From the IMG/VR virus record IMGVR_UViG_3300047472_000134, positions 1-64,000 of that record: a DNA stretch of 64,000 bases, one strand, 5' to 3'. Both the position numbers and the translations under genes were made by a program. This DNA comes from a virus. Below are positions 14,371 through 56,191 of the stretch, piece by piece. The notes under the pieces were generated by a model. That model made no database searches. It saw nothing but the letters and a program-made list of their open reading frames with translations, and had not been told where the DNA came from. Position 1 is the first letter of the stretch, and each line of letters begins with the position of its first letter.

Positions 14371-14546
14371 TGTGTTGGGTATATGGGATTGCCTGTCTAA
14401 GTTCGCAATAGATCACGGACTAAGCAAGAATATGCGAGCGGTGTTGTCTCGCACGGCGTGCTTGAGTAAGTCATACTCTCGCACGCAGCGACTGGCTGAT
14501 TAGGTGTGCTCTCGCTACATGTGGTTCCGACAAACACGGAGCTTTC
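14371..14546. promoter_or_regulatory. divergent promoter region, late vs early
   Basis: This 176-base gap separates the minus-strand late block from the plus-strand block. It contains ACTTAGACAG on the minus strand (14393-14402), 23 bases before the terminase ATG, and the palindrome at 14464-14478, 68 bases before the plus-strand gene. It must hold at least one promoter in each direction, but no canonical -35/-10 pair is obvious. Confidence 0.55.
14464..14478. promoter_or_regulatory. GAGTA-N5-TACTC palindrome, site 1
   Basis: GAGTA-AGTCA-TACTC, perfect 5-bp arms, followed by TCGC. It lies 68 bases before the ATG of the 153-residue gene that opens the replication helicase unit. One of eight matching sites in the window. 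Confidence 0.75.
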
Positions 14547-15008
14547 ATGAGCAAATATTTCCCCAACATCAGTGAGGAGCAAATTCTCCTCATCAACCGC
14601 GTGCTGCGGGGTCTCGCAGACAATCCCGACTACCTCGACGGCTCGTCCTACCCACAGACGGTTCTCGACTTCTTCAACAAGCAGCAGGCCCGCGCCGGCC
14701 AGGTGGAGGATCTCTTCGAAGGCGACCAAGTGGTTGCGATCGAGAAGCAGATCCAGTCACTGATCAACGATCTGGAAGCCTACGGCCGGAGCCTGAACGC
14801 CGACGATAGCTCCGAGAAGATCCAGTATTTCAAGACGAAGAACTCGCTCTTGGAAAAGCTCCTCAACAACCTCGAGCGAGCAGCCAACCTCAAGCAGATC
14901 AACGAGTTTCGATCGACCGTCATCACCTTCATGGACGAGGTTTTGGACAAGGATCAGATCACCAATTTCATGAAGCGTATCGACGGAGTGCTCACCAATG
15001 GCCGATAA
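14547..15008 (+). CDS. helical protein upstream of prim-pol helicase, unknown
   Basis: 153 residues, almost entirely helical and charged (VEDLFEGDQVVAIEKQIQSL, KNSLLEKLLNNLERAANLKQINEF). Its ribosome site is CGGAG 6 bases before the ATG, and it overlaps the primase-helicase gene by 11 bases, so the two are co-translated. A role as primase/helicase accessory protein or small terminase subunit is possible, since it lies next to both. Nothing in the sequence decides between them. Confidence 0.6.
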   Translation: MSKYFPNISEEQILLINRVLRGLADNPDYLDGSSYPQTVLDFFNKQQARAGQVEDLFEGDQVVAIEKQIQSLINDLEAYGRSLNADDSSEKIQYFKTKNSLLEKLLNNLERAANLKQINEFRSTVITFMDEVLDKDQITNFMKRIDGVLTNGR

Positions 15009-17406
15009 GATTTTCGAAACCCACGCACCGCTCTATTGGGCCGCTGGCCTTCCGGCCATTCCGCTGATCGCTGAGAACAAGCGTCCTGCCATCCCTCGTT
15101 GGCAGATGTACTCCGACGCGTTCCCGAGCAAGGATGACCAGGCCGGCTGGCTGCAGGCGTTCGCCTACGGCAACATCGGTCTGCCGATGGGTCCAGCCTC
15201 TGGCCTCGTCGCGATCGACATCGATAGCGAGGATCCAGTCGTCCTCCAGGTTCTCGATCGCGTGCTGCCGCACTCCCCGTGGCACCGCGTCGGCCGCAAG
15301 GGTCGGGTGCAGATCTATCGTTGGTCGGGCGAGCGCACGGCTCGTATCAAGGCCGAAGATGGCTCGATGATCTGCGAAATCCTGTCGAAGGGCACGCAGT
15401 TCGTTCTGCCGCCGTCGATCCACCCTGATACCAAGATGCCCTACACGGCGAACGGCAATCTCTGGGAGATCGCCAAGCAGGCCCCGCCGCTTCCGCTCGA
15501 GTTCGAGAAGGTGCTCAAGGGCGCCCTTCGCGAGGCTGGCATCGCTGTCTCGTCTGGTGGCCAGTCCAAGACGCTGAACTTCGTCCCGGCCGGCGCCCGC
15601 GATGCAACGATGGTTTGGCATGCCGGTCTGTTGGCGCGTGCGGTTCTGCGTGGTGAGCGGTCGCTCATCCAGGTGTTGGGCGAAATGCAGGCCTGGGTCG
15701 AGAACTTCGTCGAGAAGGTGGTAGGCGATCCGCTCACCGTCGAGAAGGCCCAGGGTAAGGTGGTCGAGTTCCTCGTCAGCGACGTCACGGGCGCGGCTGG
15801 CAAGTCACTGCCACTTGGTTGGGACGAAGGTCTCACCGAGGAGGATCTCGTCCGCCTTGGGCTCACGTTCACGGACGACGACAAGACGTGGACCGCTCAG
15901 AAGATCATGGATTACGTCTCGACCGAGTTCGAGCGTTTCCTCGATCCGCGTTCCGAAGGTCGCACGACGGCGATCAACGTCGCCCTCGGCAAGATCTGCC
16001 GCGCCAATCCGCCACTCAGCCCGATCGACGAGGGTATGGTCCTGCGGATGATCGTCAGCTCGTCGGCCGGCGTGTGTGCGCTGACCGACCTGAAGAAGGC
16101 TCTCAACACGCTGCGTCGTGGCGACATCCTCGGTGAGACGCACTCGGAGCTGGCCGAAGCATGCCTCGGCTTCCTCGGCAAGTACGGTGAGGTCCGCTAT
16201 GACGCTTCCAACTTCTGGCAGTGGCGTGGCGCCGCCTGGACCAAGTGCCAGGAAGCTGAGCTGCTGAAGATCATCTCACAGACCTACGGCAACTACCCGG
16301 CGTGCAAGCGCCAGTCGGACCACTCAGGCATCCTGAAGGTCATGAAGGCGATCGCCACCGCTCCGCTGCGGACGTCCTATGTCAAGGGCGTGAACTTTGC
16401 GAACGGCTATCTGACCGAGAACCTCGAGCTGGTACCGCATGCGCCCGAGTTCGGCATGACCTACACCCTGCCCTACCGCTACACGCCTGAGAAGGCCGGC
16501 CACATGCCGATGTTCGACCAGTTCCTCAACGACAGCTGGGCGACCGACGCCGATTACGGTGACAAGCTGCTGGCTCTGCAGGAGATGCTTGGCGTCTCGC
16601 TGATGGGCAAGGCCCCGCAGTTCCAGATGGCGTTCCTTCTGTTCGGCCAGGCTGGTGCTGGCAAGTCGGTGCTCCAGGCCATCATGCGTGGTTTGATGCC
16701 GACCGGTTCCTCGTCGGCCATCTCACCTTCGGATTGGGCTGACCGGTTCCTGCCAGCCGAGATGTTCGGCAAGGTCATCAACTTCGCGGGCGAGCTGTCG
16801 GAGACGAAGACGATCCCAGGCGACATCTTCAAGAAGGTGGTGTCGGGCGAAGAGATGCAGGTGCAGCACAAGAACGGCCAGCCGTTCCTGATCGAGCCGC
16901 AGTGCGCCCATTGGTTCAACTCGAACCATCTGCCGAAGACGCGGGACAGCTCCGAGGGCTTCAATCGCCGCTGGCTGATCCTGGAGTTCAACAATCGTAT
17001 CCCGGCCGACAAGCGGGTGATCGATCTGGACGCTCAGATCCTCGAGCACGAGTGTGAGGCGATCGTCGCCTGGGCGATCCAGGGCTACAAGCGCCTCGTC
17101 GAGAAGGGCAACTACACTTTCCCGACCTCGCATCTGGCTCTGGTCGAGGCGATGGCAGCGGACAACAACTCGGTTCGTCACTTCCTGACCTCGACGGGTA
17201 CGGGTCTGAAGTGGGGTTCTGAACATGCGATCGCCCTGGCCGATCTGCACACGCAGTATTGGCAGTTCTCGATCGCGACGGGCAACGCCACTCGCGTCAA
17301 CGTCACAAAGTTCACGAAGCTGATGAAGGAACTGTCGGGCACGTTCCCGTTCGAGATCGACATCCGCGGCAAAAACGAAGTGTTCTATTTGGGAGTTGGT
17401 GTCTGA
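14998..17406 (+). CDS. primase-polymerase / SF3 helicase fusion
   Basis: 802 residues. The N-terminal ~190 residues are a bifunctional primase-polymerase domain: PAIPLIAENKRPAIPRW, the metal-binding AIDIDSED (D74, D76), then a His-containing strand and EILSKGTQFVLPPS. The C-terminal ~300 residues are a D5-type SF3 helicase: LLFGQAGAGKSVLQ (Walker A, about residues 547-557), NFAGELSETK (Walker B), HWFNSNHLPK (motif C), then FNRRWLILEF with the arginine finger. The enzyme would unwind DNA and lay down primers at the fork, ahead of the family A polymerase encoded at 46 kb. The start has GGAG 9 bases before it. Confidence 0.9.
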   Translation: MADKIFETHAPLYWAAGLPAIPLIAENKRPAIPRWQMYSDAFPSKDDQAGWLQAFAYGNIGLPMGPASGLVAIDIDSEDPVVLQVLDRVLPHSPWHRVGRKGRVQIYRWSGERTARIKAEDGSMICEILSKGTQFVLPPSIHPDTKMPYTANGNLWEIAKQAPPLPLEFEKVLKGALREAGIAVSSGGQSKTLNFVPAGARDATMVWHAGLLARAVLRGERSLIQVLGEMQAWVENFVEKVVGDPLTVEKAQGKVVEFLVSDVTGAAGKSLPLGWDEGLTEEDLVRLGLTFTDDDKTWTAQKIMDYVSTEFERFLDPRSEGRTTAINVALGKICRANPPLSPIDEGMVLRMIVSSSAGVCALTDLKKALNTLRRGDILGETHSELAEACLGFLGKYGEVRYDASNFWQWRGAAWTKCQEAELLKIISQTYGNYPACKRQSDHSGILKVMKAIATAPLRTSYVKGVNFANGYLTENLELVPHAPEFGMTYTLPYRYTPEKAGHMPMFDQFLNDSWATDADYGDKLLALQEMLGVSLMGKAPQFQMAFLLFGQAGAGKSVLQAIMRGLMPTGSSSAISPSDWADRFLPAEMFGKVINFAGELSETKTIPGDIFKKVVSGEEMQVQHKNGQPFLIEPQCAHWFNSNHLPKTRDSSEGFNRRWLILEFNNRIPADKRVIDLDAQILEHECEAIVAWAIQGYKRLVEKGNYTFPTSHLALVEAMAADNNSVRHFLTSTGTGLKWGSEHAIALADLHTQYWQFSIATGNATRVNVTKFTKLMKELSGTFPFEIDIRGKNEVFYLGVGV

Positions 17407-17534
17407 TGAACGGACTTGGCAATTTTCTCTATTTCATCATGATTTGGGCAGGGATCGGCGCGATCCTGTCGTTCGGAGGTTCGATTTGGCTGCTTTATTG
17501 GGCTCTGAATCATGTTTCGCTGACGATCTCGTAG
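17406..17534 (+). CDS. 42-residue membrane protein
   Basis: Starts MNGLGNFLYFIMIWAGIG and contains one or two hydrophobic spans (FLYFIMIWAGIGAILSF, then SIWLLYWALNHV). The ATG overlaps the helicase stop codon as TGATG, which indicates coupled translation. The size and hydrophobicity would also suit a small inner-membrane regulator or superinfection protein, but no function is recognised. A terminator-like region follows. Confidence 0.6.
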   Translation: MNGLGNFLYFIMIWAGIGAILSFGGSIWLLYWALNHVSLTIS

Positions 17535-17551
17535 TCGTCAGGGTCAAAAAT

Positions 17552-18673: not shown

Positions 18674-18700
18674 CGGGCGTCCGAGAGGGCGCCCGATTTT
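18674..18700 (+). terminator. terminator after acidic protein gene
   Basis: CGGGCG (18674-18679) pairs with CGCCCG (18690-18695) and is followed by ATTTTCG. It ends 24 bases after the stop codon, directly before palindrome site 2. Confidence 0.7.
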
Positions 18701-18707: not shown

Positions 18708-18722
18708 GAGTATGCATTACTC
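18708..18722. promoter_or_regulatory. GAGTA-N5-TACTC palindrome, site 2
   Basis: GAGTA-TGCAT-TACTC; the centre is itself palindromic (ATGCAT). It is flanked by TTCAA and TCGCG. It lies just behind a terminator and 345 bases before the next clear gene. It is the exact reverse complement of site 8 at 56061. Confidence 0.75.
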
Positions 18723-19067
18723 TCGCGTTTCGCCTCTAGCGCCAGGTGCTGGTTCGGATTTAGAGGTTGGGCATCAGAGAGGTTCCCTAGACCCCTATGA
18801 TAGCAGTCCGAAAAACGAAAAATTTCCCGGAGTTTGTCTGACCCTATTAAGCGAAAAAAGCTGAATAAGATCAGATAATTAGGTGGTACCCTTCGTTCGC
18901 TTTCGGTGATGATAGGCATTAGATTGATAACAGTTGATCAAACGGGTCAACGAGGGGATGGCCTTGGCCAGCCCCTTGGCGGGAGACGTGCGTCTTCCTC
19001 CTCACTTCCCCCACGGGGGAACGGATCAAACACTCTCCCCCACGGGGGAAACGAAAGGGACACGGAC
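18723..19067 (+). promoter_or_regulatory. long untranslated leader with tandem hairpins
   Basis: 345 bases without a convincing gene. Near the 3' end are two copies of TCCCCCACGGGGGAA, at 19007-19021 and 19036-19050; each is a near-perfect palindrome able to form a short GC hairpin in RNA. The ribosome site AAAGGGACA follows the second. The layout suggests a structured leader controlling the first gene of the accessory block. Confidence 0.5.
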
Positions 19068-19823
19068 ATGAGCACGACGACGGCGGTTAAGGAACAGACT
19101 AACATCCCAACGGGCTACACGGTAGCGTCGGTTATCTCTCGGATCATGGCGCTAGACGTCGATGCTTCGGGCAATGCCGAAAAGGCAGCATGGAAGCGTT
19201 ACATGAGCCTTTGCCTCCTGTCGCTGGCCAAGGGTTGGGACCTGAAGAAGGTTGCGGAACAGGTCTTTGGCGCCAATGCCAAGCCTTCCAAGACATTCCA
19301 GAACATGGCAAGCCTTGCCCGCAAGGTCCGCCACAATCCGGAATTGCTTGGCAATCATCAATGGGCCGACGTCAAGGTCATGGCCATTGAAGAGGCGCAG
19401 GACGCCACGATCGCCATGATCAATCGCCACATGGCGGTGCTCGATGTCTCGTCCAAAAACGAGTACGAAAAGTTCTGCGAATTCTCCGCTGTTGAGGCAG
19501 GGGAGAAGAGGCAGCAGGACGCGGACGAAAAGGCTGCTGCAGCCAAGGCGAAAGCCGAAGCCGATTTGGCCGAAAAGGTCGAAACGGACAAGAAGGAGAC
19601 GGACGCCAAAGCCAAGGCGGACGCCACTCCGGAGCGCACGCCAGCCGAGGCCGCGATTGCAGCCCTAGCGGATGCATCCTCCTCTGACTTGGTTCAAGTC
19701 GCCTTCCATTGCCTCAAGGGCAAGATTGATCTCTCGGATGCAATCGCCATCCGCGACTGGTTGGACAATGCCATCGCCATGGCCGCGACCCAGATCGAAG
19801 GCCCCGCTGCAGCCGCAGCGTAA
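19068..19823 (+). CDS. hypothetical coiled-coil protein, first gene of accessory block
   Basis: 251 residues. The N-terminal half is helical, with a possible HTH-like stretch (LAKGWDLKKVAEQVFGANAKPSKTF). Residues 140-190 form an Ala/Lys/Glu/Asp-rich coiled coil (EKAAAAKAKAEADLAEKVET). The C-terminus has LVQVAFHCLKGKIDLSDAIAIRDWLDNAI. The start at 19068 was chosen because AAGGGA lies 8 bases upstream; the open frame extends further upstream through the hairpin leader without a ribosome site. No family is recognised. Its position behind a long leader suggests it is highly expressed early. Confidence 0.65.
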   Translation: MSTTTAVKEQTNIPTGYTVASVISRIMALDVDASGNAEKAAWKRYMSLCLLSLAKGWDLKKVAEQVFGANAKPSKTFQNMASLARKVRHNPELLGNHQWADVKVMAIEEAQDATIAMINRHMAVLDVSSKNEYEKFCEFSAVEAGEKRQQDADEKAAAAKAKAEADLAEKVETDKKETDAKAKADATPERTPAEAAIAALADASSSDLVQVAFHCLKGKIDLSDAIAIRDWLDNAIAMAATQIEGPAAAAA

Positions 19824-20958: not shown

Positions 20959-20973
20959 GAGTATTACTTACTC
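20959..20973. promoter_or_regulatory. GAGTA-N5-TACTC palindrome, site 3
   Basis: GAGTA-TTACT-TACTC, identical to site 6 at 44461. Followed by AAAAAATTTT, an A/T tract that may bend the DNA. Confidence 0.75.
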
Positions 20974-21054
20974 AAAAAATTTTCCCAGCAAACTAGGTAA
21001 CCCCTTTTCTATTATCTCTCTTTCTCTCTCTCTATTCTCTAGGGAGAAAAAAGA

Positions 21055-21069
21055 AAGTAAGTAATACTC
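21055..21069. promoter_or_regulatory. GAGTA-N5-TACTC palindrome, site 4 (one mismatch)
   Basis: AAGTA-AGTAA-TACTC, one mismatch from the consensus and otherwise the exact reverse complement of site 3. The two form a long-range inverted repeat with about 80 bases between them. Confidence 0.65.
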
Positions 21070-21776: not shown

Positions 21777-22109
21777 ATGTCGGTACTCGACTTGCTTACC
21801 CGTGCCCAAAATCTGATCCGCGATCCAGCCAACTGGACGCAGGACTTCATCGCTCGCGACAAGATAGGCAGACCTGTCAACGTCACAGATCCGGACGCAG
21901 TTTGCTTCTGCAGTCTCGGCGCTCTGGCACGAGCTGAACCTGATCCAGAAGCACGAGCCAAGGCCAAGATTTACCTCCATGACGCTGTCGACCACCTGAC
22001 GGGTGGCTGGGGCATCGCGACGTTCAACGACCGCGAAGGCCGCACCCACGCCGAGGTCATGGCCATGTGGGACAAGGCACGGGAGCTCGCCATTGCAAAC
22101 GCCGCTTGA
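21777..22109 (+). CDS. DUF6197-like protein, paralogue 1
   Basis: 110 residues. It shares with three neighbours the pattern LIRDPANWTQ-x-FIARD, then CFCSLGALARA, then FNDREGRTHAEVMAMWDKA. This layout matches the phage- and plasmid-borne DUF6197 family: an N-terminal helix ending in W-T, a short Cys-containing strand and a C-terminal helix with H-x-E/D-V. Function is unknown. First of a tandem series; the next copy begins 17 bases before its stop. Confidence 0.7.
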   Translation: MSVLDLLTRAQNLIRDPANWTQDFIARDKIGRPVNVTDPDAVCFCSLGALARAEPDPEARAKAKIYLHDAVDHLTGGWGIATFNDREGRTHAEVMAMWDKARELAIANAA

Positions 22110-22431
22110 GACCCTGACCCTCGCCCAGGATCTGATCCGCGATCCTCGCAAGTGGACCAAGGGCTACTTCGCTCGCAATGAGCGGGGAGCCATGGTCGAG
22201 GCCAACTCGCTGAACGCCAAGTGCTGGTGCGCCGTTGGTGCGGTGCTGAAGGTCTCGAACTACAGCCCCTATCTGGGGCTCAGCAACAACAGGGTGATCC
22301 GGCTGCTGAGCCAGGCCAGCAATGACGTGATCGTCCCTCATTTCAACGACAATCCCGACGTCACCCATGACGACATCATGGCGATGTTCAACCGTGCGAA
22401 AGGCCTGGCCCGTGAGCAACAAGCTGCTTGA
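22093..22431 (+). CDS. DUF6197-like protein, paralogue 2
   Basis: 112 residues from a TTG at 22093, chosen because GGGAG lies 7 bases upstream and no ATG or GTG is near. Conserved parts: DLIRDPRKWTKGYFARN, CWCAVGAVLKV, and FNDNPDVTHDDIMAMFNRA. The Cys-x-Cys of the first copy is kept (CWC). Sequence between the motifs is unlike the first copy, so the duplication is old or the copies were acquired separately. Confidence 0.68.
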   Translation: MQTPLETLTLAQDLIRDPRKWTKGYFARNERGAMVEANSLNAKCWCAVGAVLKVSNYSPYLGLSNNRVIRLLSQASNDVIVPHFNDNPDVTHDDIMAMFNRAKGLAREQQAA

Positions 22432-22738
22432 ACTGATAACCGCCGGTCAGGAGCTGATCCGTGATCCTGCCCACTGGACCCAGGGCATCTATGCCCGCAA
22501 CTCGGCCGGCGAAGCTGTCGGCATGCTGTCTGATCGCGCTTTTTGCTTCTGCAGCATCGGTGCTCTGCACCGTGCTCAACATAATCTCGATCTTGAATAC
22601 GAACTGATCGACCAAGCGCACGAGATTCTGGACAAGGCCACCGGCGAGATCGAGAGCGTGGTCAAGGCGAACGACAGCAACTCGCACGACTATGTCATGG
22701 GCATGTGGGACAGGGCGAAGGAGCTGGCCAGTGCCTGA
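22412..22738 (+). CDS. DUF6197-like protein, paralogue 3
   Basis: 108 residues from a GTG at 22412 with AAAGG about 8 bases upstream; it overlaps the previous gene by 20 bases. Conserved parts: ELIRDPAHWTQGIYARN, CFCSIGALHRA, and the closing helix HDYVMGMWDRAKELA. The middle has a second helix (YELIDQAHEILDKATGEIE). Third of the tandem series. Confidence 0.68.
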   Translation: MSNKLLELITAGQELIRDPAHWTQGIYARNSAGEAVGMLSDRAFCFCSIGALHRAQHNLDLEYELIDQAHEILDKATGEIESVVKANDSNSHDYVMGMWDRAKELASA

Positions 22739-22988
22739 CATCGAAATCTCCATCGACGTCGACATCACCGCCGGGATCGCATTCTGGGTCGATCCAGAAC
22801 ACTGGCTCGAGCTCGATGAAGCAGGGAAGCGAGCCCACATCGCTGGCGTGATCGACGCCATCGCAGGGGACATGGCGAACGACGTGATCCGCTTCCGGGC
22901 CGGCAACCTGTCGGCCTCCATCACCGGACCAATCCAAGACACGATCTCCCTCGACGAGGTGCAGATCTATGATCCGAGGGAAACATGA
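22731..22988 (+). CDS. hypothetical acidic protein
   Basis: 85 residues from a GTG at 22731 with AAGGAG 8 bases upstream, overlapping the previous stop. Starts PDIEISIDVDITAGIAFWVD and has a helix AGKRAHIAGVIDAIAGDMAN. Strongly acidic. No family recognised. Confidence 0.55.
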   Translation: MPDIEISIDVDITAGIAFWVDPEHWLELDEAGKRAHIAGVIDAIAGDMANDVIRFRAGNLSASITGPIQDTISLDEVQIYDPRET

Positions 22989-23242
22989 ACCAGAGAATGA
23001 CCTTCAACACTGGCCGGCTCTACACAGCGCTCGGCCAGGTGATCACGTTCGAGAAGCACGACGATCACGTCCTGTTCAAGGACCACAGCCGCCTGATCTG
23101 CGGCCGGATCGACGATGTCCCTCCCCTGGGTGTCGAGATCCCGAAGTGGGTGATGAGCCACTACGACAAGAACAACTATCGCATGTCGACCGAGGCCATC
23201 GGCCTCGACCAGTCGGACACGATCCACAACGTGAGGCTCTAG
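22985..23242 (+). CDS. hypothetical protein
   Basis: 85 residues, beta-rich (NTGRLYTALGQVITFEKHDD, HVLFKDHSRLICGRIDD), ending in DTIHNVRL. The ATG overlaps the previous stop (ATGA). Its final bases overlap the convergent zinc-ribbon gene by 4. No family recognised. Confidence 0.55.
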   Translation: MNQRMTFNTGRLYTALGQVITFEKHDDHVLFKDHSRLICGRIDDVPPLGVEIPKWVMSHYDKNNYRMSTEAIGLDQSDTIHNVRL

Positions 23243-23499
23243 CGGGGCAACTGACCCAAGATCCACTTGTTGCCTAGTTTGTTGTTGCAGGATCTGCAGC
23301 GCAATCGAGACGTGAGCGATCCAAGGTAGGCACCCTTGCCATACCTCCGAGCCAGATCCCAGCGATCGAGCCACGCTTCACGCTCACACTTGGGGCAGCT
23401 GACCCCAATCGCCTGATACTCCGGGACATCGTCGAATGTGACGTGAATGGGCTCCTTGATTGGACCCAGATACGTGATGTCGCCTGACCGCTGTCTCAT
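23239..23499 (-). CDS. small zinc-ribbon protein, opposite strand
   Basis: 86 residues on the minus strand inside the plus-strand block. Two CxxC pairs (CPKC near residue 35 and CRSC near 68) bracket a conserved-looking region REAWLDRWDLARRYG and GSLTSRLRC, a zinc ribbon that probably binds nucleic acid or protein. Many small alphaproteobacterial proteins have this W-L-D-R-W style. The frame extends upstream of 23499, but the ATG there is the natural beginning because the extension is the mirror of the neighbouring gene. The ribosome site is weak. Confidence 0.6.
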   Translation of the reverse strand: MRQRSGDITYLGPIKEPIHVTFDDVPEYQAIGVSCPKCEREAWLDRWDLARRYGKGAYLGSLTSRLRCRSCNNKLGNKWILGQLPR

Positions 23500-23535
23500 C
23501 GTTCTTATTTCGTTCACGCAATCGAAAGAGTCAAT

Positions 23536-23931
23536 ATGACCGATTTCGTCAAAAGCTCGGGGTGCATCTTCACCGATCTCGAACTGACGCCGCCTCTTAC
23601 CCTGTCCTACAAGAACTGGAAGGGTGAAGTGGCCGACCGCATGATCATGCCGACAACCGTTTGGTTCGGGACGACCGAATGGCACCCCAACCCACAATGG
23701 TTCCTCAAAGGCACGGACCTGGAGAAGCGTGAGGAGCGAGATTTCGCGATCGCTGACTTCGGGGCGAGCAAGGACCAGCTCATCGAACAGATGGCCGGCG
23801 CCCTCAACTTCATCCTGGCCTTCTACGAACCGGGCCAGAGCTACCTGGACACCAACGCATGGACCAGAGCCGAGGCCGGTGGCCGCAAAGCTTTGGCGGA
23901 CGCGAAAGCTGCGGGGTACTTCCGTGCCTGA
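23536..23931 (+). CDS. hypothetical protein
   Basis: 131 residues. Contains WFGTTEWHPNPQWFLKGTDLEKR and ERDFAIADFGAS, a layout seen in small phage proteins with a W-x-P-Q-W core, then a long helix KDQLIEQMAGALNFILAFY. Probably soluble. No function is known to me. Preceded by AAAGAGTCAAT, a weak ribosome site. Confidence 0.6.
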   Translation: MTDFVKSSGCIFTDLELTPPLTLSYKNWKGEVADRMIMPTTVWFGTTEWHPNPQWFLKGTDLEKREERDFAIADFGASKDQLIEQMAGALNFILAFYEPGQSYLDTNAWTRAEAGGRKALADAKAAGYFRA

Positions 23932-24031
23932 CGACGACTTCCCCTACCCCTACGACCTCAACGAGTTCGACGATGATGAAGACATCGACGAGCTGATCAG
24001 GAGCCTGAACCGTGACCATGACCCCGCTTGA
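23924..24031 (+). CDS. 35-residue acidic peptide
   Basis: GTG start overlapping the previous stop. More than a third of the residues are Asp or Glu (DDDFPYPYDLNEFDDDED). The stop lies inside the next gene. Likely real because of the coupled overlaps on both sides, but very short. Confidence 0.45.
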   Translation: MPDDDFPYPYDLNEFDDDEDIDELIRSLNRDHDPA

Positions 24032-24347
24032 AGTTCTCGTCGCCGGCCGTGACTTGCTGTCGGACCCTGACCGGTGGACGCAGCGTGCCCTTGCCCGAGA
24101 CAAGAAGGGCGAAGCCACGGACAATCCCTGGGACGCGAAGGCCACTTGCTTCTGCTCATTAGGCGCGGTCCACAAGGTGCTGGGCTCTGGTGAACTCGAG
24201 CTCAAGTTCGAGGTGAAGCAATACCTGTCACAGGCGGCTCCAACCCACAGTATCGTCCCCTACAACGACAACCACACTCACGCCGAGGTGCTTGCCGTCT
24301 GGGACGAGGCAATTAAGGCCGCGACCGCCGATGCACGTCACATCTGA
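24012..24347 (+). CDS. DUF6197-like protein, paralogue 4
   Basis: 111 residues from GTG 24012 (AGGAG 8 bases upstream; an ATG at 24018 is in frame). Conserved parts: DLLSDPDRWTQRALARD, CFCSLGAVHKV, and YNDNHTHAEVLAVWDEA. Clearly the same family as the three copies 1.5-2 kb upstream and closest in pattern to paralogue 1 (CFCSLGA, THAEV). It is separated from them by four other genes. Confidence 0.7.
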   Translation: MTMTPLEVLVAGRDLLSDPDRWTQRALARDKKGEATDNPWDAKATCFCSLGAVHKVLGSGELELKFEVKQYLSQAAPTHSIVPYNDNHTHAEVLAVWDEAIKAATADARHI

Positions 24348-28816: not shown

Positions 28817-28818
28817 AC

Positions 28819-28850
28819 TGCGTTGACGCACGTTAACGCACATCAACGCA
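28819..28850. repeat. partition-region repeat block 1
   Basis: Contains TGACGCACGTTAACGCA (28824-28840) inside the larger palindrome TGCGTTGA-N16-TCAACGCA. The 17-mer recurs exactly at 29073-29089 and in inverted form with two changes at 31029-31045. Lies 10 bases before the ATG of the next gene. Confidence 0.75.
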
Positions 28851-28859
28851 GGAACATTA

Positions 28860-29075
28860 ATGAGCAGAAAGATTACCTCGGTCATCGGACCAGAACCGAT
28901 GCGAACAGGCGAAGATCCCGATTTCTACTCGGTCGGGCGTAACGACGTCACCAAGATCGATGAGTGGGAGCAGAATCTCGGCTCCTACGCCATCATCTGG
29001 TTTGAGGTCTACACCTCAAAAGGCCTGCTGGCGAAGATGAACGCGATGCATGTCGCCGCTGTGCGTTATGACTGA
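28860..29075 (+). CDS. hypothetical protein between repeat blocks
   Basis: 71 residues: SRKITSVIGPEPMRTGEDPD, then DEWEQNLGSYAIIWFEVYT and KGLLAKMNAMHVAAVRYD. Sandwiched between two partition-region repeats, so it may belong to the partition locus and be under the same control. No DNA-binding motif is obvious. Confidence 0.55.
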   Translation: MSRKITSVIGPEPMRTGEDPDFYSVGRNDVTKIDEWEQNLGSYAIIWFEVYTSKGLLAKMNAMHVAAVRYD

Positions 29076-29117
29076 CGCACGTTAACGCATGACGCATTGT
29101 GCAGCATTTTGAGGCAT
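29073..29117. repeat. partition-region repeat block 2
   Basis: TGACGCACGTTAACGCA at 29073-29089, an exact copy of block 1, followed by TGACGCATTG and GCATGTTAACGTCC (about 29114-29127). Several GTTAAC-centred units upstream of the ParA gene, as expected for a parS centromere or an operator bound by the RHH partner. Confidence 0.75.
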
Positions 29118-29182
29118 GTTAACGTCCTGTAAGGCATTGACATGCACTCTGCTGCTACAACAACAACGCTTAAAGGACGCAC
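29076..29182 (+). promoter_or_regulatory. probable parA promoter/operator region
   Basis: 107 bases between the stop of the upstream gene and parA. It holds repeat block 2, TGTTAACGTCC, then GGCATTGACATGCACTCTG where TTGACA could be a -35 element, and AAAGGA 7 bases before the ATG. Autoregulation by the RHH partner would be typical. Confidence 0.5.
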
Positions 29183-29857
29183 ATGCCCGTAATTACGGTA
29201 GCGAACCCCAAGGGTGGGGCAGGGAAGTCGACCACGACTCTCGTCCTCGCCTCCACCCTGGCCTCCCGCGGCGCCAGTGTCATCATCCTGGACTGTGATC
29301 CGAACCAACCCATCACTGGATGGAGGGGAGGGGACTCAAAGAGCAAGGTCATCGTCGATGGCGACGTCAACGAGAGCAACGTCACATCGAAGCTCGACCA
29401 ATACCGGAAGGAATACCAGTTCGTGTTCGTCGATCTCGAGGGCACAGCCAGCCGGTTGATGTCGCGGGCTCTGGCTCGAGCCAACTTGGCCGTCATTCCG
29501 ATCCAAGCCAGCCCGACAGATGCAGAGCTGGCTGCGAAAGCTATTCGCCTGATCCAGGAAGAGGAGCAGGCATTCGAGAAGACGATCCCGTATCGGATCC
29601 TCTTCACCCGCACGAGCCCAGTCATCGCGACCAAGCTAGAGAAAGCCATCCTCGCCCAATTGAAGGGAGGGGAGGTGCCAACCTTCAGCAACCACCTGAA
29701 TGAGCGTGCGGCTTACAAGTCGCTCTTCTATCACCAGCTGGATCTGGACGAACTGGACTCGAATGAAGTTAATGGCCTCCCGCAGGCTAGAGAAAATGCA
29801 CTGCGCCTGGCTGAAGAGCTCATCGAGCTGGTCGTGCAGAAGAAAGAAGCAGCATGA
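29183..29857 (+). CDS. parA: ParA-family partition ATPase
   Basis: 224 residues, the size of short (type Ib) ParA proteins without an N-terminal HTH. It has the deviant Walker [11 protein letters not shown] (K10 and K15), Walker A' [10 protein letters not shown], Walker B FVFVDLEG and [10 protein letters not shown]. These ATPases form gradients on the nucleoid and move bound cargo DNA. The gene overlaps a small RHH protein by 4 bases and follows GTTAAC repeats, which together form a complete partition-locus layout. VirC1-like or cargo-positioning ParA proteins are alternatives. Confidence 0.85.
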
Positions 29858-30141
29858 CCGGCAAGAACCTTGGCTTCGGCCGTCTCGCAGAAATCAAGCC
29901 AGAGGCCGATGAGCCGGCGCCGATCCCTGACCGGAAGGTCGACGAAGTGGCCGAGAAGCATGGTTTCGTCAGCCGCGAGCCGGTCCAGAAAATTGTCCGC
30001 CGGAAAGAAGCGGAGCCTAGTGGGAACCTGAACATCCGCCCGCCGCTCTCGACCTACAATCGGTTCGTCCAGTGGGCGATCGACAACAACCTCAGCTACC
30101 CGCAGGCTCTGAAGGAGCTGATGGATAGGGCCAAAATCTGA
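29854..30141 (+). CDS. RHH-type ParB-like partner of ParA
   Basis: 95 residues. The N-terminal ~55 are polar and probably flexible ([20 protein letters not shown]), usual for the ParA-stimulating tail of small ParB proteins. The last 35 ([20 protein letters not shown] then [13 protein letters not shown]) fit a ribbon-helix-helix domain. ATGA overlap with parA. It probably binds the GTTAAC repeats and represses the promoter. Also possible: an unrelated small RHH regulator. Confidence 0.68.
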
Positions 30142-33565: not shown

Positions 33566-33619
33566 AGGAAGGAGGTGGTTCAACTGACCGTCCTCGACAC
33601 CGAAGTAGACTTGTAGCCA
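33566..33619 (+). other. strong ribosome-binding sequence without a clear gene
   Basis: GGAAGGAGGTGG is a near-perfect match to the 3' end of 16S rRNA. Six bases after the core comes CTG, which would give a 10-residue peptide ending at TAG 33616; no ATG is placed correctly. It may be a decoy, a leader peptide or an mRNA stabiliser. Confidence 0.4.
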
Positions 33620-33642
33620 GGCCCGCGAAAGCGGGCCTTTTT
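33620..33642 (+). terminator. terminator
   Basis: GGCCCGC-GAAA-GCGGGCC followed by TTTTT. A perfect 7-bp stem with GNRA loop, just before palindrome site 5. Confidence 0.85.
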
Positions 33643-33648: not shown

Positions 33649-33663
33649 GAGTACGACTTACTC
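33649..33663. promoter_or_regulatory. GAGTA-N5-TACTC palindrome, site 5
   Basis: GAGTA-CGACT-TACTC, flanked by TTGA and TCGCC. It sits between a strong terminator and the TAXI-like gene (70 bases upstream of its ATG), so any transcript of that gene must begin near here. Confidence 0.8.
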
Positions 33664-33733: not shown

Positions 33734-34594
33734 ATGAAGAAATTCTTCCTCGCAGCCGCTTTTGCGCTGCTCGCAATTCCCGCCAATGCCGCCGCAATTC
33801 GCCTCTGCACTGGCGCCGCCGACCAGCCCTACGCCGCGGCTGGCGAACTCATCAAGGACGAAGCCAAGGGAAACGGCCTGGATGTCGAAGTCGTCAAGGA
33901 TACTGGTGGTAGCTGGGGAAACGTCCAGCTCTCTCTCCAGGGTAAGTGCGATGCGATTATCGGCCAGCCTGACGCTCTCGCTTACCTCAAGCGCACCGAG
34001 CCGGCGAACGCCGCCAAGTTCCTGCCGATCGCAGACCTTCACCGTGAATATGCCGCCGCAGTCTGCGGAAAGAATTCGGGCGTTACTGACATCGGGGATC
34101 TCGAAAACGACCCGGCCAAGTATTCCATCGCTCTTGGCGAGCGTGGCTCGGGCGCCTGGTTGATCTGGCAGAACTTCATCTCTGAAGACTCCGACTATTC
34201 AGGCGTCCGAACGACAGCCGAAAGCGGCGATGATGCTCTGTCGGCGGTGGCCAACGACCAGACGACGTGTGCCTTGGTACCAGCCGCTCTCGTCAACTCT
34301 GTGATGCGCTCGGCCGACGAGCTGTACAGCGACAACCTGATCCTCGTGGGCGTCAACGACAAGGACTTCGACGACGCTCCTGATGCCCAGGGCAAGCCAC
34401 TCTACACCTACAGCAAGATCCCCTCGGGCACTTACCCGAAGCTGCAGGGCTGGTTCAGCGGCAAGGCGACAATCAGCTGGCTCGCCAAGGTCTACGTCAA
34501 CAAGGACACGCTGACCGACCAGAACGTCCGAAAGGCTTTGATCCGCTCGGTCATGAAGGCCCGCCAGAACGTCGTCTCCAACTTCGGCTCCTAA
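33734..34594 (+). CDS. secreted TAXI-like periplasmic binding protein
   Basis: 286 residues. N-terminal signal peptide KKFFLAAAFALLAIPANA, with probable cleavage after A-N-A. The mature part is a type 2 periplasmic binding fold: IRLCTGAADQPYAAAGELIK, GGSWGNVQLSLQGKCDAIIG, ALAYLKRTEP, then SIALGERGSGAWLIWQNFI and GDDALSAVANDQTTCALVP. This matches the TAXI branch of solute-binding proteins. The C-terminus has YVNKDTLTDQNVRKALI. Such proteins bind a small ligand in the periplasm; a phage copy is unexpected. It has its own promoter region and terminator. Confidence 0.78.
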   Translation: MKKFFLAAAFALLAIPANAAAIRLCTGAADQPYAAAGELIKDEAKGNGLDVEVVKDTGGSWGNVQLSLQGKCDAIIGQPDALAYLKRTEPANAAKFLPIADLHREYAAAVCGKNSGVTDIGDLENDPAKYSIALGERGSGAWLIWQNFISEDSDYSGVRTTAESGDDALSAVANDQTTCALVPAALVNSVMRSADELYSDNLILVGVNDKDFDDAPDAQGKPLYTYSKIPSGTYPKLQGWFSGKATISWLAKVYVNKDTLTDQNVRKALIRSVMKARQNVVSNFGS

Positions 34595-34611: not shown

Positions 34612-34635
34612 GCTCCCCTGCGGGGGAGCTTTCAT
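34612..34635 (+). terminator. terminator after TAXI-like gene
   Basis: GCTCCCC-TGCG-GGGGAGC followed by TTTCAT, 17 bases after the stop codon. Confidence 0.75.
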
Positions 34636-40862: not shown

Positions 40863-41264
40863 GTGAAGAAGGGAAAACGATTGGATTATAAACAACTCGA
40901 GCGACTGAACCTGGCGGTGGCACGGTTCCGGGAATTGTACCCGGACGCCCCATTACTCACGTTCCAAGTCTTTCTCGATGTCGCGTTACATCCAGGGACA
41001 TCGTCCGTGGATTTGATACGCAGAACAGGCGCGTCTCAATCCGCCATCAGTAGACATTTGGTCTTGCTTTCGACCTGGACTTGGCAGGGCACACGGCCGA
41101 GTCTTGAACTAATCGAAATGCGACCGAACACATCCGCGAGGAAGGTTCCTTTTCTGACGCAGAAAGGGGTCGGCTTGGCGTGTGCTTTGATGAAGACAGT
41201 AGAGCCTGAACTGACGATAACAGCAGCCGATTTCGCAACCCACTTAGCGAAGGCCGACCACTGA
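40863..41264 (+). CDS. MarR-like winged-helix regulator
   Basis: 133 residues from GTG 40863; the frame is open from TTG 40815. Contains a winged helix: LLTFQVFLDVALHPGTSSVD, then LIRRTGASQSAISRHLVLLS (helix-turn-helix), a wing with LIEMRPNTSARKVPFLTQKG and a dimerising helix. MarR-type proteins repress by binding palindromes. Upstream of the next gene lie two palindromes that could be its targets. No ligand pocket can be judged. Confidence 0.68.
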   Translation: MKKGKRLDYKQLERLNLAVARFRELYPDAPLLTFQVFLDVALHPGTSSVDLIRRTGASQSAISRHLVLLSTWTWQGTRPSLELIEMRPNTSARKVPFLTQKGVGLACALMKTVEPELTITAADFATHLAKADH

Positions 41265-41389: not shown

Positions 41390-41827
41390 ATGACGACCAA
41401 TACCGCATGGCATGCCGCCGCCCTCTATGATATCGAGAACACCAGCCTAACGGTGGCCGAGATCGCAACGAAATATGGGCGGTCCAGCAGTACGATCGAT
41501 AAGCTCATCTTCACGAGCGGTGTCGTTCGCAAGTACCCAAATACCCGCCGCGGTCCAAAGCGCCGAGAGAATGGTCTCCCGCTCTCGCGTGAACACGTAG
41601 CGCTTGGCATTCGCCTTGGCATGGCTCGAGGGGTCGAGAAGCCACAGGTGTATGCTGATCGTCTAGGTGTCAGCCCGATCGTCTTGGCCAACATGGAAGC
41701 TGGCCTCCACGATTTTCAACTCAGCCAGATCCTCAAGATCTCGGCAATGATCGGCCAGCCGATTGGCGAGCTGATCCAATCCTTCGACAAGAACCTGTAT
41801 CAAGGGAGAACGAATGCCCGTAATTAA
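41390..41827 (+). CDS. double HTH regulator
   Basis: 145 residues from ATG 41390 with AAGGAA 6 bases upstream. Two HTH-like regions: a homeodomain-style LTVAEIATKYGRSSSTIDKL near residues 21-40, and an XRE-like KPQVYADRLGVSPIVLANME near 84-103 followed by LSQILKISAMIGQPIGELIQ. Linker RGPKRR is basic. A transcription factor controlling early or middle genes is likely. Overlaps the next gene by 14 bases. Confidence 0.65.
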   Translation: MTTNTAWHAAALYDIENTSLTVAEIATKYGRSSSTIDKLIFTSGVVRKYPNTRRGPKRRENGLPLSREHVALGIRLGMARGVEKPQVYADRLGVSPIVLANMEAGLHDFQLSQILKISAMIGQPIGELIQSFDKNLYQGRTNARN

Positions 41828-43018: not shown

Positions 43019-43031
43019 TATGGAAACTCCT

Positions 43032-44462
43032 ATGACTGATGCAACTTTACGAACCGACCAGGTGGCCGATCTTGCGTTTTACATGGCAAACCCAAAGTGC
43101 CTAAATTTATCGCACGCCGGGACTGGAAAAACACCGTCAGTCTGCGTCATGCAATACTTCATGTGGACGCAGAATGGTGTTGGGACTGTATGGGCACAAC
43201 CTAAATCCCTACTCAAGAAAAACAAGCGTGAACTGCTGCGTTTTACCGACTTTACTGACGCCGATGTGGCAATTGTAGACGGCACTCCGAAGCAGGTTGA
43301 GAAGGCCCTCAACTCAGGCGCGAAGGTTTTTCTAATGGGCTTCCGCCGGCTTACTCTCTGCTGGCGGCAGCTACCTAGCTATGTGAAAGCCGTCCACGTC
43401 GACGAATTTCACATGGGCTACAAGAGCGCAGACTCCCAGAACTCACTGGCGCTCTTCAAAATGTTTGACAGCGGGCGGATGACGCACTTCATCCCAATGA
43501 CCGGAACACTTATCGACGGCAAACTGACGTCAGCTTATCCGGCCATTCGCGTCGTCGAACCGCGATACTATATGTCCCATGAGAACTTTCTACTATACCA
43601 TGGGATTAAAGACTTAGACGGAAAGGTGGTCGCTTGGAAGAACCACGAGAAGCTGTCCAAGATCTTCGGCCGACACGCAATCCTTCGAACCTTTGCCAGT
43701 GTCCATGGTGAACAGGAGGTCGTCCATATTCCAGAGATGGTGGATATGGAGGACAAGCAGAGGTTTTACTACGACAAATTTCACGACGACGCTGTACTGG
43801 AACTCGAGAACTTCTACCTGGACGGGACACTGCCAGGCGTAGCGTTTACCCGAGCCCGCCAGCTCATGGAACACCCGATCGAGTTCCCAGACCTGGCCAA
43901 CCCTGGCCAGTTCATCGACATCCTGAAGGGCGAACCGACTGGCAAGGAAGAGCGGCTCAAGGTTCACTTCGAAGAGCACTATCTCAACGAGAAGCCGCTC
44001 ATCATCTTCACGCCTCTGATTCCGCAGCAGAACCGCGTAGCAAAGCTGCTTGAGCAAGCTGGCATCAGCTACGTGGTCATCAACGGCTCGATCACTCAGA
44101 AACAGCGTGACGCCAACAGCGATGCCTTCGAAGAGGGCAGGGTGCAGGCGGTCCTCGGAACGCCGATGACAGCGTCGTTCGGCTACAACTGGCAATTCAG
44201 CGGGAAGAAGGAGGTGGAGCACATGATCTTCACCTCGCTCGACTTCAGCGATGCCACTTTCGTCCAGGCTCGACAGCGAGCCATTCGTGGCAAGCGGTCC
44301 TCGCCGCTGCGGCTCACGACGCTGGAGTACATCAGCTCTCTCGACCAGCACATCTGCAGCATCATCTACCGGAAGAGCAAGGATGCCAACAAGGTCGATC
44401 CTTCTCGACCTGTTCTCCAACTGTCTGGCTTCGAAGAGAAGAAAGAAAAACTCGCTGCTTGA
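43032..44462 (+). CDS. SF2 (SNF2-like) helicase
   Basis: 476 residues from ATG 43032 (an ATG at 43020 is in frame). Motifs: Q-like TLRTDQVADLAFYMANP, Walker A NLSHAGTGKTPS, motif Ia VWAQPKSLLKKNK, motif II HVDEFHMG (variant DEFH), motif III MTGTLIDGK, then helicase C: IIFTPLIPQQNRVAKLLEQA, VLGTPMTASFGYNWQ, and motif VI FVQARQRAIRGKRSS. The fold is that of SNF2 enzymes that remodel or translocate on dsDNA. It is the last gene before a palindrome site and the replication module, so a role in replication restart or late transcription is likely. Confidence 0.82.
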   Translation: MTDATLRTDQVADLAFYMANPKCLNLSHAGTGKTPSVCVMQYFMWTQNGVGTVWAQPKSLLKKNKRELLRFTDFTDADVAIVDGTPKQVEKALNSGAKVFLMGFRRLTLCWRQLPSYVKAVHVDEFHMGYKSADSQNSLALFKMFDSGRMTHFIPMTGTLIDGKLTSAYPAIRVVEPRYYMSHENFLLYHGIKDLDGKVVAWKNHEKLSKIFGRHAILRTFASVHGEQEVVHIPEMVDMEDKQRFYYDKFHDDAVLELENFYLDGTLPGVAFTRARQLMEHPIEFPDLANPGQFIDILKGEPTGKEERLKVHFEEHYLNEKPLIIFTPLIPQQNRVAKLLEQAGISYVVINGSITQKQRDANSDAFEEGRVQAVLGTPMTASFGYNWQFSGKKEVEHMIFTSLDFSDATFVQARQRAIRGKRSSPLRLTTLEYISSLDQHICSIIYRKSKDANKVDPSRPVLQLSGFEEKKEKLAA

Positions 44463-44475
44463 GTATTACTTACTC
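44461..44475. promoter_or_regulatory. GAGTA-N5-TACTC palindrome, site 6
   Basis: GAGTA-TTACT-TACTC, overlapping the helicase stop codon, followed by TCGCACGAGAG. Identical to site 3. Lies 106 bases before the next ATG. Confidence 0.8.
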
Positions 44476-51868: not shown

Positions 51869-51874
51869 TTTTAA

Positions 51875-51886: not shown

Positions 51887-51893
51887 GATTAAA

Positions 51894-51924
51894 GGGCGAG
51901 AGTACACATTACTCTCGCCCTTTC
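51894..51924. promoter_or_regulatory. GAGTA-N5-TACTC palindrome, site 7 (extended, terminator-like)
   Basis: Core GAGTA-CACAT-TACTC at 51900-51914 with arms extended to 11 bp (GGGCGAGAGTA / TACTCTCGCCC), followed by TTTCTTT. As RNA it would be a rho-independent terminator for thyX; as DNA it matches the phage-wide palindrome. It lies 51 bases before the next gene's ATG. Confidence 0.8.
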
Positions 51925-53867: not shown

Positions 53868-54129
53868 AGACCTCGACCGATCGCCCGCCGAATATCTCTG
53901 GGTCATGGACACATGGCTCGGAGTACCGGGCCTGTCGGCGCCCGAAGTGGCGATGATTCAGACGTTCAAAACCAGTGTTGAAAAAGGCCTCGCAGACTTC
54001 GACCAGCTGCGTCGCATCGCCTCCCAACCAGCTTTCAAGCCAGTGCTTCGCTCAGCCATGTTCAAGGCGGCGATGGCCGGCGTCCTCTTCAATTGGAGTG
54101 AATACCCCTACCATGATCAAGCAGCTTAA
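53857..54129 (+). CDS. hypothetical protein between sbcD and sbcC
   Basis: 90 residues: ALKDLDRSPAEYLWVMDTWL, then SAPEVAMIQTFKTSVEKGLA and a closing helix RSAMFKAAMAGVLFNW. It overlaps SbcD by 11 bases and SbcC by 17. The position suggests a small third partner of the complex. No family recognised. Confidence 0.55.
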   Translation: MALKDLDRSPAEYLWVMDTWLGVPGLSAPEVAMIQTFKTSVEKGLADFDQLRRIASQPAFKPVLRSAMFKAAMAGVLFNWSEYPYHDQAA

Positions 54130-56191
54130 TTATTCGGTCACGTTCCCGTCGACCGGCCGCACCCTGTCCGAAGCCGTCCTGTTCCAGGGCGGCTTTGGTG
54201 CTATTGTAGGTCCGAACGAATCCGGCAAGACCATGATCGTTGAGATGGTCCGCTTCTGCCTCTTCGGCTCGGCAGCTCTCCGAGGCAAGGCCGAGGACTA
54301 CAAGAACCTGAAAGCCTCGCTCGACTTCGTGATCCGGAACCAGGATTACACCGTCGATCGCACCGGGACCAAGGCTCAGCTCAAGGAAAATGGTGAAGTC
54401 GTCGCGGTCGGCATCACCCCGGTCAATGTTAAGATCGCCCAGATCCTGGGCTTCGGCCTGACCGTGTTCGACATGGCCTGCGTGGCGAACCAGAACCAGC
54501 TCCTGGCGCTGGGTGAGATGAAGCCGGCCGAGCGCCGCCGCGCCGTCGATAGCGTGATCGGTGTTTCCGTCCTCGACGACCTCGCGAAGTCGGCCGGCGT
54601 CGAAGCTCTGGCCCAGAAGCGGGCAGGGGACGATCTCGCCTCGAACAACCGCCTGCCTATCGAGCCGGTGCTGCACGACGGCTACCGCGAAAGCTCGGAA
54701 CTGTCCGAGGAGAAGGCTCAGCTGGACAGCATCCGCTCGCAGGCGGACCAGCTCCGCGGCTGGCTCGCGAACGAGAAGAAGAAGCCTGTGGCGCCGGTTG
54801 CGCCACACGGTCTCGGCTCAGCCGTCGTCCAGACGATGCTCGATGCTCAGAACGAGCGCAAGATTCAGCGTCAGGTTCTGGAAGGCGAGCTCGCTCGCAT
54901 TCCGGCTGCATCCGGCATCACCATGGACGAACTTGCGGCCGATCGCGAGAACCACAAGCTGGCTCAGGCTCATCGCGCCCGCCGGCAGTTCCTGGCCTTC
55001 AACAAGTTCCCGGATTTGGATCAGGACCAGATCAAAAGTATCCGCCGCGCCTGGGACGCTCACCACGACTGGCAGAAGGTTCAGCATCTGAAGAAGCAGA
55101 AGGCCGACCTGCTTTCCAAGGGCGAGCACACTTGCCCCAGCTGCACCCATCAGTGGCCAGTTGCGGGTGACGCGATCGAAAGCGTGGACCGGGAACTCGA
55201 GGTCTATTCCAAGTCCGTCCTGCTTCCGGAGAGGCCCTCGACTACGGAAGCAGAACTCGATCGTCATCAGCGCGAGCTCAACAACTGGCTCTCGGTCAAG
55301 GATGAGTGGAACGACGTCCACAGCAAGGCTCCGGAGACACCGCCGTCCGTCCGCTGGACGCTGGACCAGATCGCCAGCCTTGAGCACGGTATCCAGCTGC
55401 AGGACCGCCGCGCCGAGCTCGTCGCAGAGATCGAGAAGCTGAAGCCGGCCGACAAGGAACCGGACTACGCTACGATGCTGCGCCAGGCCCAGCAGCACGA
55501 GGCCCAGGTTGCGGCTTGGTCTACCCAGATGGATGAGTTCCGCGCCTGGGAGGCCGAGAAGAGCCAGAAGATGGTTCAGCTCGCGATGCTCGAGGTGGAT
55601 CTGCAGGGCTACGACCAGCTGGTTGCTGAACTGAACCAGGCTCTCGCTTACGAGCAGGCCTACAAGGTCTGGTTCCGCGAGTTCCAGATCTACAACGAGC
55701 GGCTCGACAAATGCACGACCTACTGGCTCGAAGCCGACGACTGGAACAAGGTCAAGGACGCTCTCCAGATCCTCCGTTCGAAGATTAAACAATATCTGGT
55801 TCCCTCACTTAATCGTGTCGCAAGCAGCTTGATTAGTCACATGACCGGAGGCGAACGACAGGCAATCAACGTGGACGAGGAATTCAATATTCTCGTCGAC
55901 GGACAAACGATCGATACCCTTTCCGGATCTGGCAAGGCAGTCGCTAACTTGGCGCTGCGTATTGGTCTGGGTCAGGTGCTGACGAACAATATCTTTTCTC
56001 TGTTCATGGGCGATGAAATCGACGAGTCCATGGATAAGAATAGAGCAGATAAAACCGCCGGAGTAATGCATACTCTGAAAGGTCGTATCTCGCAGCTTTT
56101 GCTCGTCTCACATAAATCTCCATCAGCGGATTACTTCATCGCTGTAGGAGAAAATAGTGAATACCAACTCAGCAACGACCAGCCTGATTAA
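54113..56191 (+). CDS. SbcC/Rad50-like ATPase (gp46 type)
   Basis: 692 residues. N-terminal Walker A GAIVGPNESGKTMIVEMV (about 29-46), coiled-coil arms with a zinc hook CPSCTHQW near residue 341, and C-terminal signature TLSGSGKAVANLALRIGLGQ followed by Walker B LFMGDEIDESMD and D-loop, then LLVSHKSPSADYFI (H-loop). With SbcD it processes DNA ends in recombination. The final ~130 residues come from DNA that looks more AT-rich than the rest and contains palindrome site 8. Confidence 0.88.
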   Translation: MIKQLNYSVTFPSTGRTLSEAVLFQGGFGAIVGPNESGKTMIVEMVRFCLFGSAALRGKAEDYKNLKASLDFVIRNQDYTVDRTGTKAQLKENGEVVAVGITPVNVKIAQILGFGLTVFDMACVANQNQLLALGEMKPAERRRAVDSVIGVSVLDDLAKSAGVEALAQKRAGDDLASNNRLPIEPVLHDGYRESSELSEEKAQLDSIRSQADQLRGWLANEKKKPVAPVAPHGLGSAVVQTMLDAQNERKIQRQVLEGELARIPAASGITMDELAADRENHKLAQAHRARRQFLAFNKFPDLDQDQIKSIRRAWDAHHDWQKVQHLKKQKADLLSKGEHTCPSCTHQWPVAGDAIESVDRELEVYSKSVLLPERPSTTEAELDRHQRELNNWLSVKDEWNDVHSKAPETPPSVRWTLDQIASLEHGIQLQDRRAELVAEIEKLKPADKEPDYATMLRQAQQHEAQVAAWSTQMDEFRAWEAEKSQKMVQLAMLEVDLQGYDQLVAELNQALAYEQAYKVWFREFQIYNERLDKCTTYWLEADDWNKVKDALQILRSKIKQYLVPSLNRVASSLISHMTGGERQAINVDEEFNILVDGQTIDTLSGSGKAVANLALRIGLGQVLTNNIFSLFMGDEIDESMDKNRADKTAGVMHTLKGRISQLLLVSHKSPSADYFIAVGENSEYQLSNDQPD
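56061..56075. promoter_or_regulatory. GAGTA-N5-TACTC palindrome, site 8 (inside sbcC)
   Basis: GAGTA-ATGCA-TACTC within the SbcC coding region, the exact reverse complement of site 2. It lies 81 bases before the GTG of the next gene, a spacing like the intergenic sites, and in a stretch of altered base composition. Confidence 0.7.

Follow-up and report, generated by a model that had tools for sequence, protein, structure and literature searches.

A short palindrome, GAGTA-N5-TACTC, recurs at eight places in the virus record IMGVR_UViG_3300047472_000134 of IMG/VR (G000 below; 81,516 bases in all), of which positions 1-64,000 form the window analysed here. We put at about 0.72 the probability that all eight palindromes serve as operators for a single DNA-binding protein that has two-fold symmetry and is encoded by the phage; it would most likely act as a lysogeny or early-gene repressor that represses or road-blocks transcription. 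The central evidence comes from related phages, in which the sites keep their places and the word written at them changes.

Seven of the copies are perfect and one, at 21055, carries a single mismatch (Table 1). All eight coordinates given by a first-pass annotation of the window proved exact, and the excess is decisive: with up to one mismatch allowed, 100 dinucleotide shuffles contained 0.58 copies on average and three at most, and none (0/100) reached the observed eight. The remaining 17.5 kb of the record (positions 64001-81516) yielded no copy in the scan. Seven of the eight sites lie outside called genes in a genome with only about 10% non-coding DNA; the exception, 56061, falls in the final ~130 base pairs (bp) of gene 53975-56191. 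Five copies had been described as standing 51-106 bases before a plus-strand start codon, and the measured distances agree well: 52 bp for 51900, 69 bp for 14464, 71 bp for 33649, 82 bp for 56061 and 107 bp for 44461. The sequence TCGC follows five of the eight sites, as had been said of most of them, and the centre of the palindrome is also non-random, reading GAGTA-Y-NNN-T-TACTC on one strand at every site (8/8). Of three copies thought to lie just behind a terminator, 18708 and 33649 do so, whereas 51900 sits inside the hairpin at 51891-51923, a form kept in G005 (flank GGGCG-G-palindrome-T-CGCCCTTTT). Sites are absent from the late structural genes of the minus strand; 14464 alone touches these, lying where terL and the primase operon diverge.

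The sites were then compared across close relatives: six IMG/VR sisters (G001-G006) whose TerL is about 80% identical to that of G000, and G007, added later. The median protein identity of close relatives is about 75%, and G001 and G004 are fragments that cover part of the slots. Scanning for GAGTA-N5-TACTC itself gave nothing in five of the six sisters and left the relatives overall nearly empty, because each lineage uses its own word. That word was found in each case by a blind scan for dispersed palindromes (mismatch-tolerant scans of whole genomes were swamped by codon bias, a problem solved by scanning intergenic DNA only), and orthology of the slots was established by aligning intergenic regions and anchoring them on orthologous genes. 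G001-G005 use the 15-bp palindrome GAGTTCTNAGAACTC, and G006 and G007 a more variable, GAGTACANTGTACTC-like word. A lineage's own 15-bp palindrome fills eight of eight slots in G005, G006 and G007 (several of those in G006 being weak, with four to five mismatches to the consensus), all six slots covered in G004 and all four covered in G001. Even the spacing of the paired sites c1 and c2 is held, at 96 bp in G000, G001, G004, G005 and G006 and 99 bp in G007. Among 2.9 million IMG/VR contigs, multiple exact copies of GAGTTCTNAGAACTC within one contig occur in sister phages only; a scan of the collection with the TCGC-extended motif of G000 hit 78 contigs with one match apiece, which is background.

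Positional conservation, on which the first-pass annotation had staked its proposal of a phage-wide operator set with a phage-encoded reader, is thus present at all eight sites in the relatives, although the motif itself is not kept. Places that persist while the motif does not are stronger evidence than plain conservation would have been. As far as sequence comparison can tell, fixed places combined with concerted change of the word are the signature of operators that share one phage-encoded DNA-binding reader of changed specificity, and the arrival of a new word everywhere at once argues against both host factors and chance. We infer a reader that is a protein and is encoded by the phage, and we regard it as very probable that the sites are recognised by a DNA-binding protein of the phage itself. 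One alternative is a host transcription factor, given that the CtrA sites of the host, TTAA-N7-TTAA, can be exploited by phages of alphaproteobacteria (PMC9437464). However, a word that differs jointly at all sites between phages with ~80% TerL identity is incompatible with a fixed host factor, and the site sequences do not fit the CtrA pattern, which makes this the least probable of the alternatives weighed here. The stretch between c1 and c2 (20974-21054) is a polypyrimidine/A-rich tract within ~700 bp of non-coding DNA, and its form is kept in the sisters; it may serve as an origin of replication or form a loop controlled by the reader.

Dispersed palindromes extend to a wider phage group. 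TerL, portal and primase of G000 share about 40% protein identity with those of Caulobacter phage Seuss, Achromobacter phages JWF and 2-1 and Xylophilus phage Lumi. Intergenic palindrome scans of JWF and 2-1 found the set GGTTCGTNACGAACC; Lumi has TTACT-N5-AGTAA in 21 copies and Seuss TTTACCTNAGGTAAA. Further sets are GGTACG-N3-CGTACC in G014, GTCTCT-N3-AGAGAC in G013 and TTTAACNGTTAAA in G024, with TTTAAC half-sites in both G024 and G025. The more distant relative pMaq22A_3p, a circular plasmid record of Methylobacterium aquaticum, carries two different dispersed 15-bp sets, TGTACG-N3-CGTACA and CCATATTNAATATGG, and perhaps has two such regulators. Most of the relatives' sets are 15 bp long with an odd centre. 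Several of the same slots hold a more degenerate word, GGTCCWAYAGACC, in G008 and an asymmetric one, TTGTCCTAKAGTAC, in G009-G011; both consensus sequences were read by eye and are less certain.

These comparisons also bear on two readings in which the element is not an operator for a repressor. In the first, proposed alongside the operator by the first-pass annotation, the palindromes are promoter elements or activator sites that assist initiation at the plus-strand units by the RNA polymerase of the host, with or without modification by the phage. The five sites 52-107 bp ahead of start codons and the two after terminators would suit this role, as would the resemblance to a -10 box of CTATAC, often seen in G006/G007 sites, and the CCTATAGTAY of the G009-G011 slots. 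However, the sites of G000 have no strongly conserved base at a fixed offset outside the 15 bp, and neither a partner hexamer nor any other strongly conserved column recurs at constant distance across the genomes. A consensus promoter scan gives fewer sites than shuffles, the motif is two-fold symmetric, and the slot motif of G009 can point towards or away from the next gene. The gap between copy and start codon, 52-107 bp in G000, is often 12-25 bp in JWF and G014 and a few bases in Seuss, so the element need not mark promoters in every relative. We consider the promoter reading unlikely. In the second, the transcribed element would form an RNA hairpin (GAGUA-loop-UACUC) and act as a terminator or as the target of an RNA-binding translational regulator. 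Site f does lie within a terminator-like hairpin with a 14-bp stem, inverted flanks are extended at two G013 sites and in the G001 copy of site a, and many JWF and G014 copies stand 12-25 nucleotides before start codons, beside the ribosome-binding site. But the sequence of the stem, beyond its pairing, is fixed within each genome and changes jointly at all sites; a longer stem is absent from most copies, c1 and c2 lie in a long non-coding stretch with the next gene far away, and an Rfam search of the window returned no match. An RNA element is accordingly very unlikely.

A third alternative concerns plasmid maintenance: the palindromes would be dispersed centromeres (parS) serving a ParA/ParB-like partition pair of the phage itself, as in N15-type linear phage-plasmids. 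Dispersed palindromes are known as centromeres in phage N15. G000 encodes a ParA-like ATPase with a small protein beside it (29183-30141), which fits this alternative, and the small protein is probably a centromere-binding ribbon-helix-helix (RHH) protein, judging by its sequence. Its predicted ParB-like contact strand, LNIRPP, is nevertheless identical in G000, G005 and G006, whose palindromes differ, and palindrome sets of their own are present in Seuss and JWF, in neither of which ParA was found. TGACGCA/GTTAACG repeats surround a small open reading frame in the gap before parA (28818-29182), in G005 and G006 as well as in G000; they are likely the centromere of the ParA system and a better candidate for it than the palindromes. 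A centromere role for the palindromes is therefore rated lower still than the RNA hairpin.

The same ParA-like ATPase would serve plasmid partition and supports a phage-plasmid life style. G000 belongs to a group of temperate siphophages and phage-plasmids that includes Seuss, JWF and pMaq22A_3p, the last with its own ParA homologue. In the isolate genome G009, a gene that resembles a tyrosine integrase takes the place of ParA, so that prophages of the integrating and of the plasmid kind seem to coexist within one phage group. A publication describes JWF as temperate (PMC9959647). Taken together, the ParA gene, the plasmid relative, the integrase-like gene of G009 and the temperate JWF make G000 most likely temperate and probably a phage-plasmid.

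Which protein reads the sites? Candidates were judged by three properties: encoding by the phage, presence in G000, G005, G006 and G007, and DNA-contact residues that differ where the operator differs. The best of them is the product of 41390-41827, which combines two helix-turn-helix (HTH) domains; we hold its role as the reader at a little under even odds. Every near-complete genome of the close clade has it, the helices of the protein differ among G000, G005 and G006, and a homologue occurs in 12 genomes with odd-centred multi-copy palindromes. Its counterpart is Seuss77 in Seuss and the gene at 71178-71639 in pMaq22A_3p. Its Cro/C1 part matches HTH_3 in 11 of 11 members, and also SinR, CylR2 and P22 C2. 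The predicted structure has a pLDDT (predicted local distance difference test) of 79 and a pTM (predicted template-modelling score) of 0.47; its best-ranking folds in the PDB belong to regulators of the Cro/C1 type, lambda cI among them, and none reaches E<=0.001. A search with the protein alone found no match in plasmids or IMG/VR, and an alignment-based search recovered nine IMG/VR contigs. JWF and phage 2-1 have both the operator and the recognition helix in common; G024 and G025 share the half-site TTTAAC and the helix; and G014 and pMaq22A_3p have a common operator core, a near-identical Cro/C1 helix and different N-terminal HTH domains. Operator distance and recognition-helix distance are correlated (Mantel test, r=0.47, p=0.0002).

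Several observations weigh against this assignment or against the regulon as proposed. Given TerL distance, the partial correlation between operator and helix is about zero (p=0.48), so that coupling of the word to this candidate cannot be separated from common descent. Four newly found contigs carry the candidate gene, among them G023 without a visible set, G025 with an even-centred 14-bp set and G026, a fragment; G008 and G016 have the gene and no clear perfect set. Conversely, G009-G011 lack the gene and yet have their asymmetric word at several of the same slots, and G015 lacks it and yet has a 15-bp set. The gene itself is without a nearby operator and lies about 7.7 kb downstream of site d, within the unit that this site heads. 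Lastly, activation would fit the sequence as well as repression does.

The second-ranked candidate is the Fis-type protein 56157-56573, encoded directly behind site g. Fis-like dimers bind 15-bp sites; the HTH part is absent from G014 and pMaq22A_3p, both of which have many sites. The winged-HTH regulator 40863-41264 is a poor third and an unlikely reader, being absent from G006/G007. The RHH proteins 45-302 and 63445-63615, which the first-pass annotation had named along with HTH proteins, are also unlikely: the beta strands by which they would contact DNA do not differ between G000 and G005, whose operators do.

Table 1. Palindromic sites, associated hairpins and candidate genes of G000 (positions in the window).
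Feature	Positions	Strand	Description
Site a	14464-14478	none	GAGTAAGTCATACTC; divergent gap terL (-) / 14547 (+); slot filled in G001, G004, G005, G006, G007
Site b	18708-18722	none	GAGTATGCATTACTC; after terminator 18674-18695
Site c1	20959-20973	none	GAGTATTACTTACTC; within long non-coding stretch; 96 bp from c2
Site c2	21055-21069	none	AAGTAAGTAATACTC; one mismatch
Site d	33649-33663	none	GAGTACGACTTACTC; after terminator 33619-33638
Site e	44461-44475	none	GAGTATTACTTACTC; overlaps stop codon of helicase gene 43020-44462
Site f	51900-51914	none	GAGTACACATTACTC; apex of terminator-like hairpin, 14-bp stem
Site g	56061-56075	none	GAGTAATGCATACTC; within 3' end of SbcC-like gene, 82 bp before 56157
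Terminator-like hairpin preceding site b	18674-18695	+	
Terminator-like hairpin before site d	33619-33638	+	
Terminator-like hairpin holding site f	51891-51923	+	AAAGGGCGAGAGTA-CACAT-TACTCTCGCCCTTT
ParA-like ATPase	29183-29857	+	VirC1/CbiA/MipZ families
Small protein beside ParA	29854-30141	+	Same predicted beta strand, LNIRPP, in G000, G005 and G006
Winged-HTH regulator (phrog_9665)	40863-41264	+	Found only in G000, G005, pMaq22A_3p
Two-HTH candidate reader	41390-41827	+	145 amino acids; N-terminal homeodomain-like HTH, C-terminal Cro/C1 (XRE) HTH
Second candidate reader, Fis-type HTH (HTH_8)	56157-56573	+	Directly behind site g; in all near-complete relatives first compared

In the proposed regulon, the operators would stand at the heads of the plus-strand units (early, replication and nucleotide metabolism) and in the divergent terL/primase gap, and a dimer of the reader would most likely repress or road-block transcription at all of them. 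We infer repression or road-blocking because the site is symmetric, has no fixed neighbour and lies at unit starts or terminators, and because the putative reader is of Cro/C1 type. Should the specificity of the reader shift in a lineage, all operators would shift too, their places remaining fixed; and since the gene 41390-41827 is inside the unit headed by site d, its product may exert negative feedback. More tentatively, and with the balance somewhat against it, the Seuss/JWF-like phages and phage-plasmids might share a family-wide immunity or regulatory system: its repressor would have two HTH domains and act at 8-20 fixed places, the operator word would be replaced at all of these together in each lineage, the resulting natural series of repressor-operator pairs would be mutually insulated, and some operators would be placed in terminator hairpins.

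Other features of the genome were recorded along the way. Another palindrome, TCCCC-N4-GGGGA, in most cases TCCCCCACGGGGGA, is found at 19007-19020, 19036-19049 and 34614-34627; it is unchanged in G001-G007 and often forms a tandem pair right ahead of the gene at 19068. G015 has eight copies of TTTCCCCGGGGAAA. Between site b and gene 19068 lies a strongly conserved non-coding block (18790-18930; CTATGATAGCAGTC..GAAAAACGAAAAATTTCCCGGAGTTT..TCTGACCCTATTA), kept in G001 and G004-G006, which is possibly a non-coding RNA, a leader or an origin. The first gene after site d (33734-34594) encodes an NMT1-like protein (periplasmic binding protein-like) with 92% identity in G005, unusually high here. 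Three paralogous DUF6197 proteins (22003, 22367 and 24012) stand amid small, fast-changing genes at 22003-24347.

Research on phage immunity has long asked how a repressor and all of its operators can change jointly and leave the regulon intact. The close relatives show, eight sites at a time, a whole regulon whose DNA code changes with every site still in place, and the group provides about ten natural operator variants for testing, several of them from isolated phages or plasmids. Dispersed operators were not found described for Seuss/JWF-like phages in the literature searched: a search for both half-sites together with phage and operator gave no match, and publications on phages Lumi and TCUP2199 make no mention of palindromes.

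Dispersed repressor regulons are known from other temperate phages, and G000 shares their features: multiple intergenic copies across the genome, places kept in relatives, and a temperate life style as judged from ParA, the plasmid relative and the integrase-like gene of G009. The likeness to L5 stoperators, the SPBRE of SPbeta and P1 C1 operators would be functional, and we claim membership in none of these systems since words, symmetry and proteins differ. In L5/Bxb1 mycobacteriophages, the consensus of the dispersed sites differs between related phages along with the repressor (PMC6550527), and the L5-type repressor has two DNA-binding domains (PMC9283540); G000 resembles them in the divergence of its word between relatives and in the two domains of candidate 41390-41827. 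L5 sites, however, are 13 bp long, asymmetric, aligned with the direction of transcription and present 20-30 times per genome, in contrast to eight symmetric 15-bp sites at unit starts in G000, and the second domain is of Cro/C1 type in the candidate and a stoperator domain in the L5-type repressor. Identity with L5-type stoperators was rejected because the G000 site is a 15-bp palindrome. Bacillus phage SPbeta likewise has a repeated 15-bp element in a temperate phage, the SPBRE of intergenic and promoter regions, read by the master repressor MrpR (PMC10516654). MrpR is tyrosine-recombinase-like, unlike the HTH candidate of G000, and the portion of that paper's text examined does not describe a family-wide change of the word. 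In P1, 22 dispersed operator copies are read by one repressor, C1, in a temperate phage-plasmid (PMC8546580). The P1 operator is asymmetric and 17 bp long, ATTGCTCTAATAAATTT, with no sequence resemblance to the 15-bp palindrome of G000, where reader and repression are putative; what the two would have in common is one operator dispersed over the genome of a temperate phage-plasmid.

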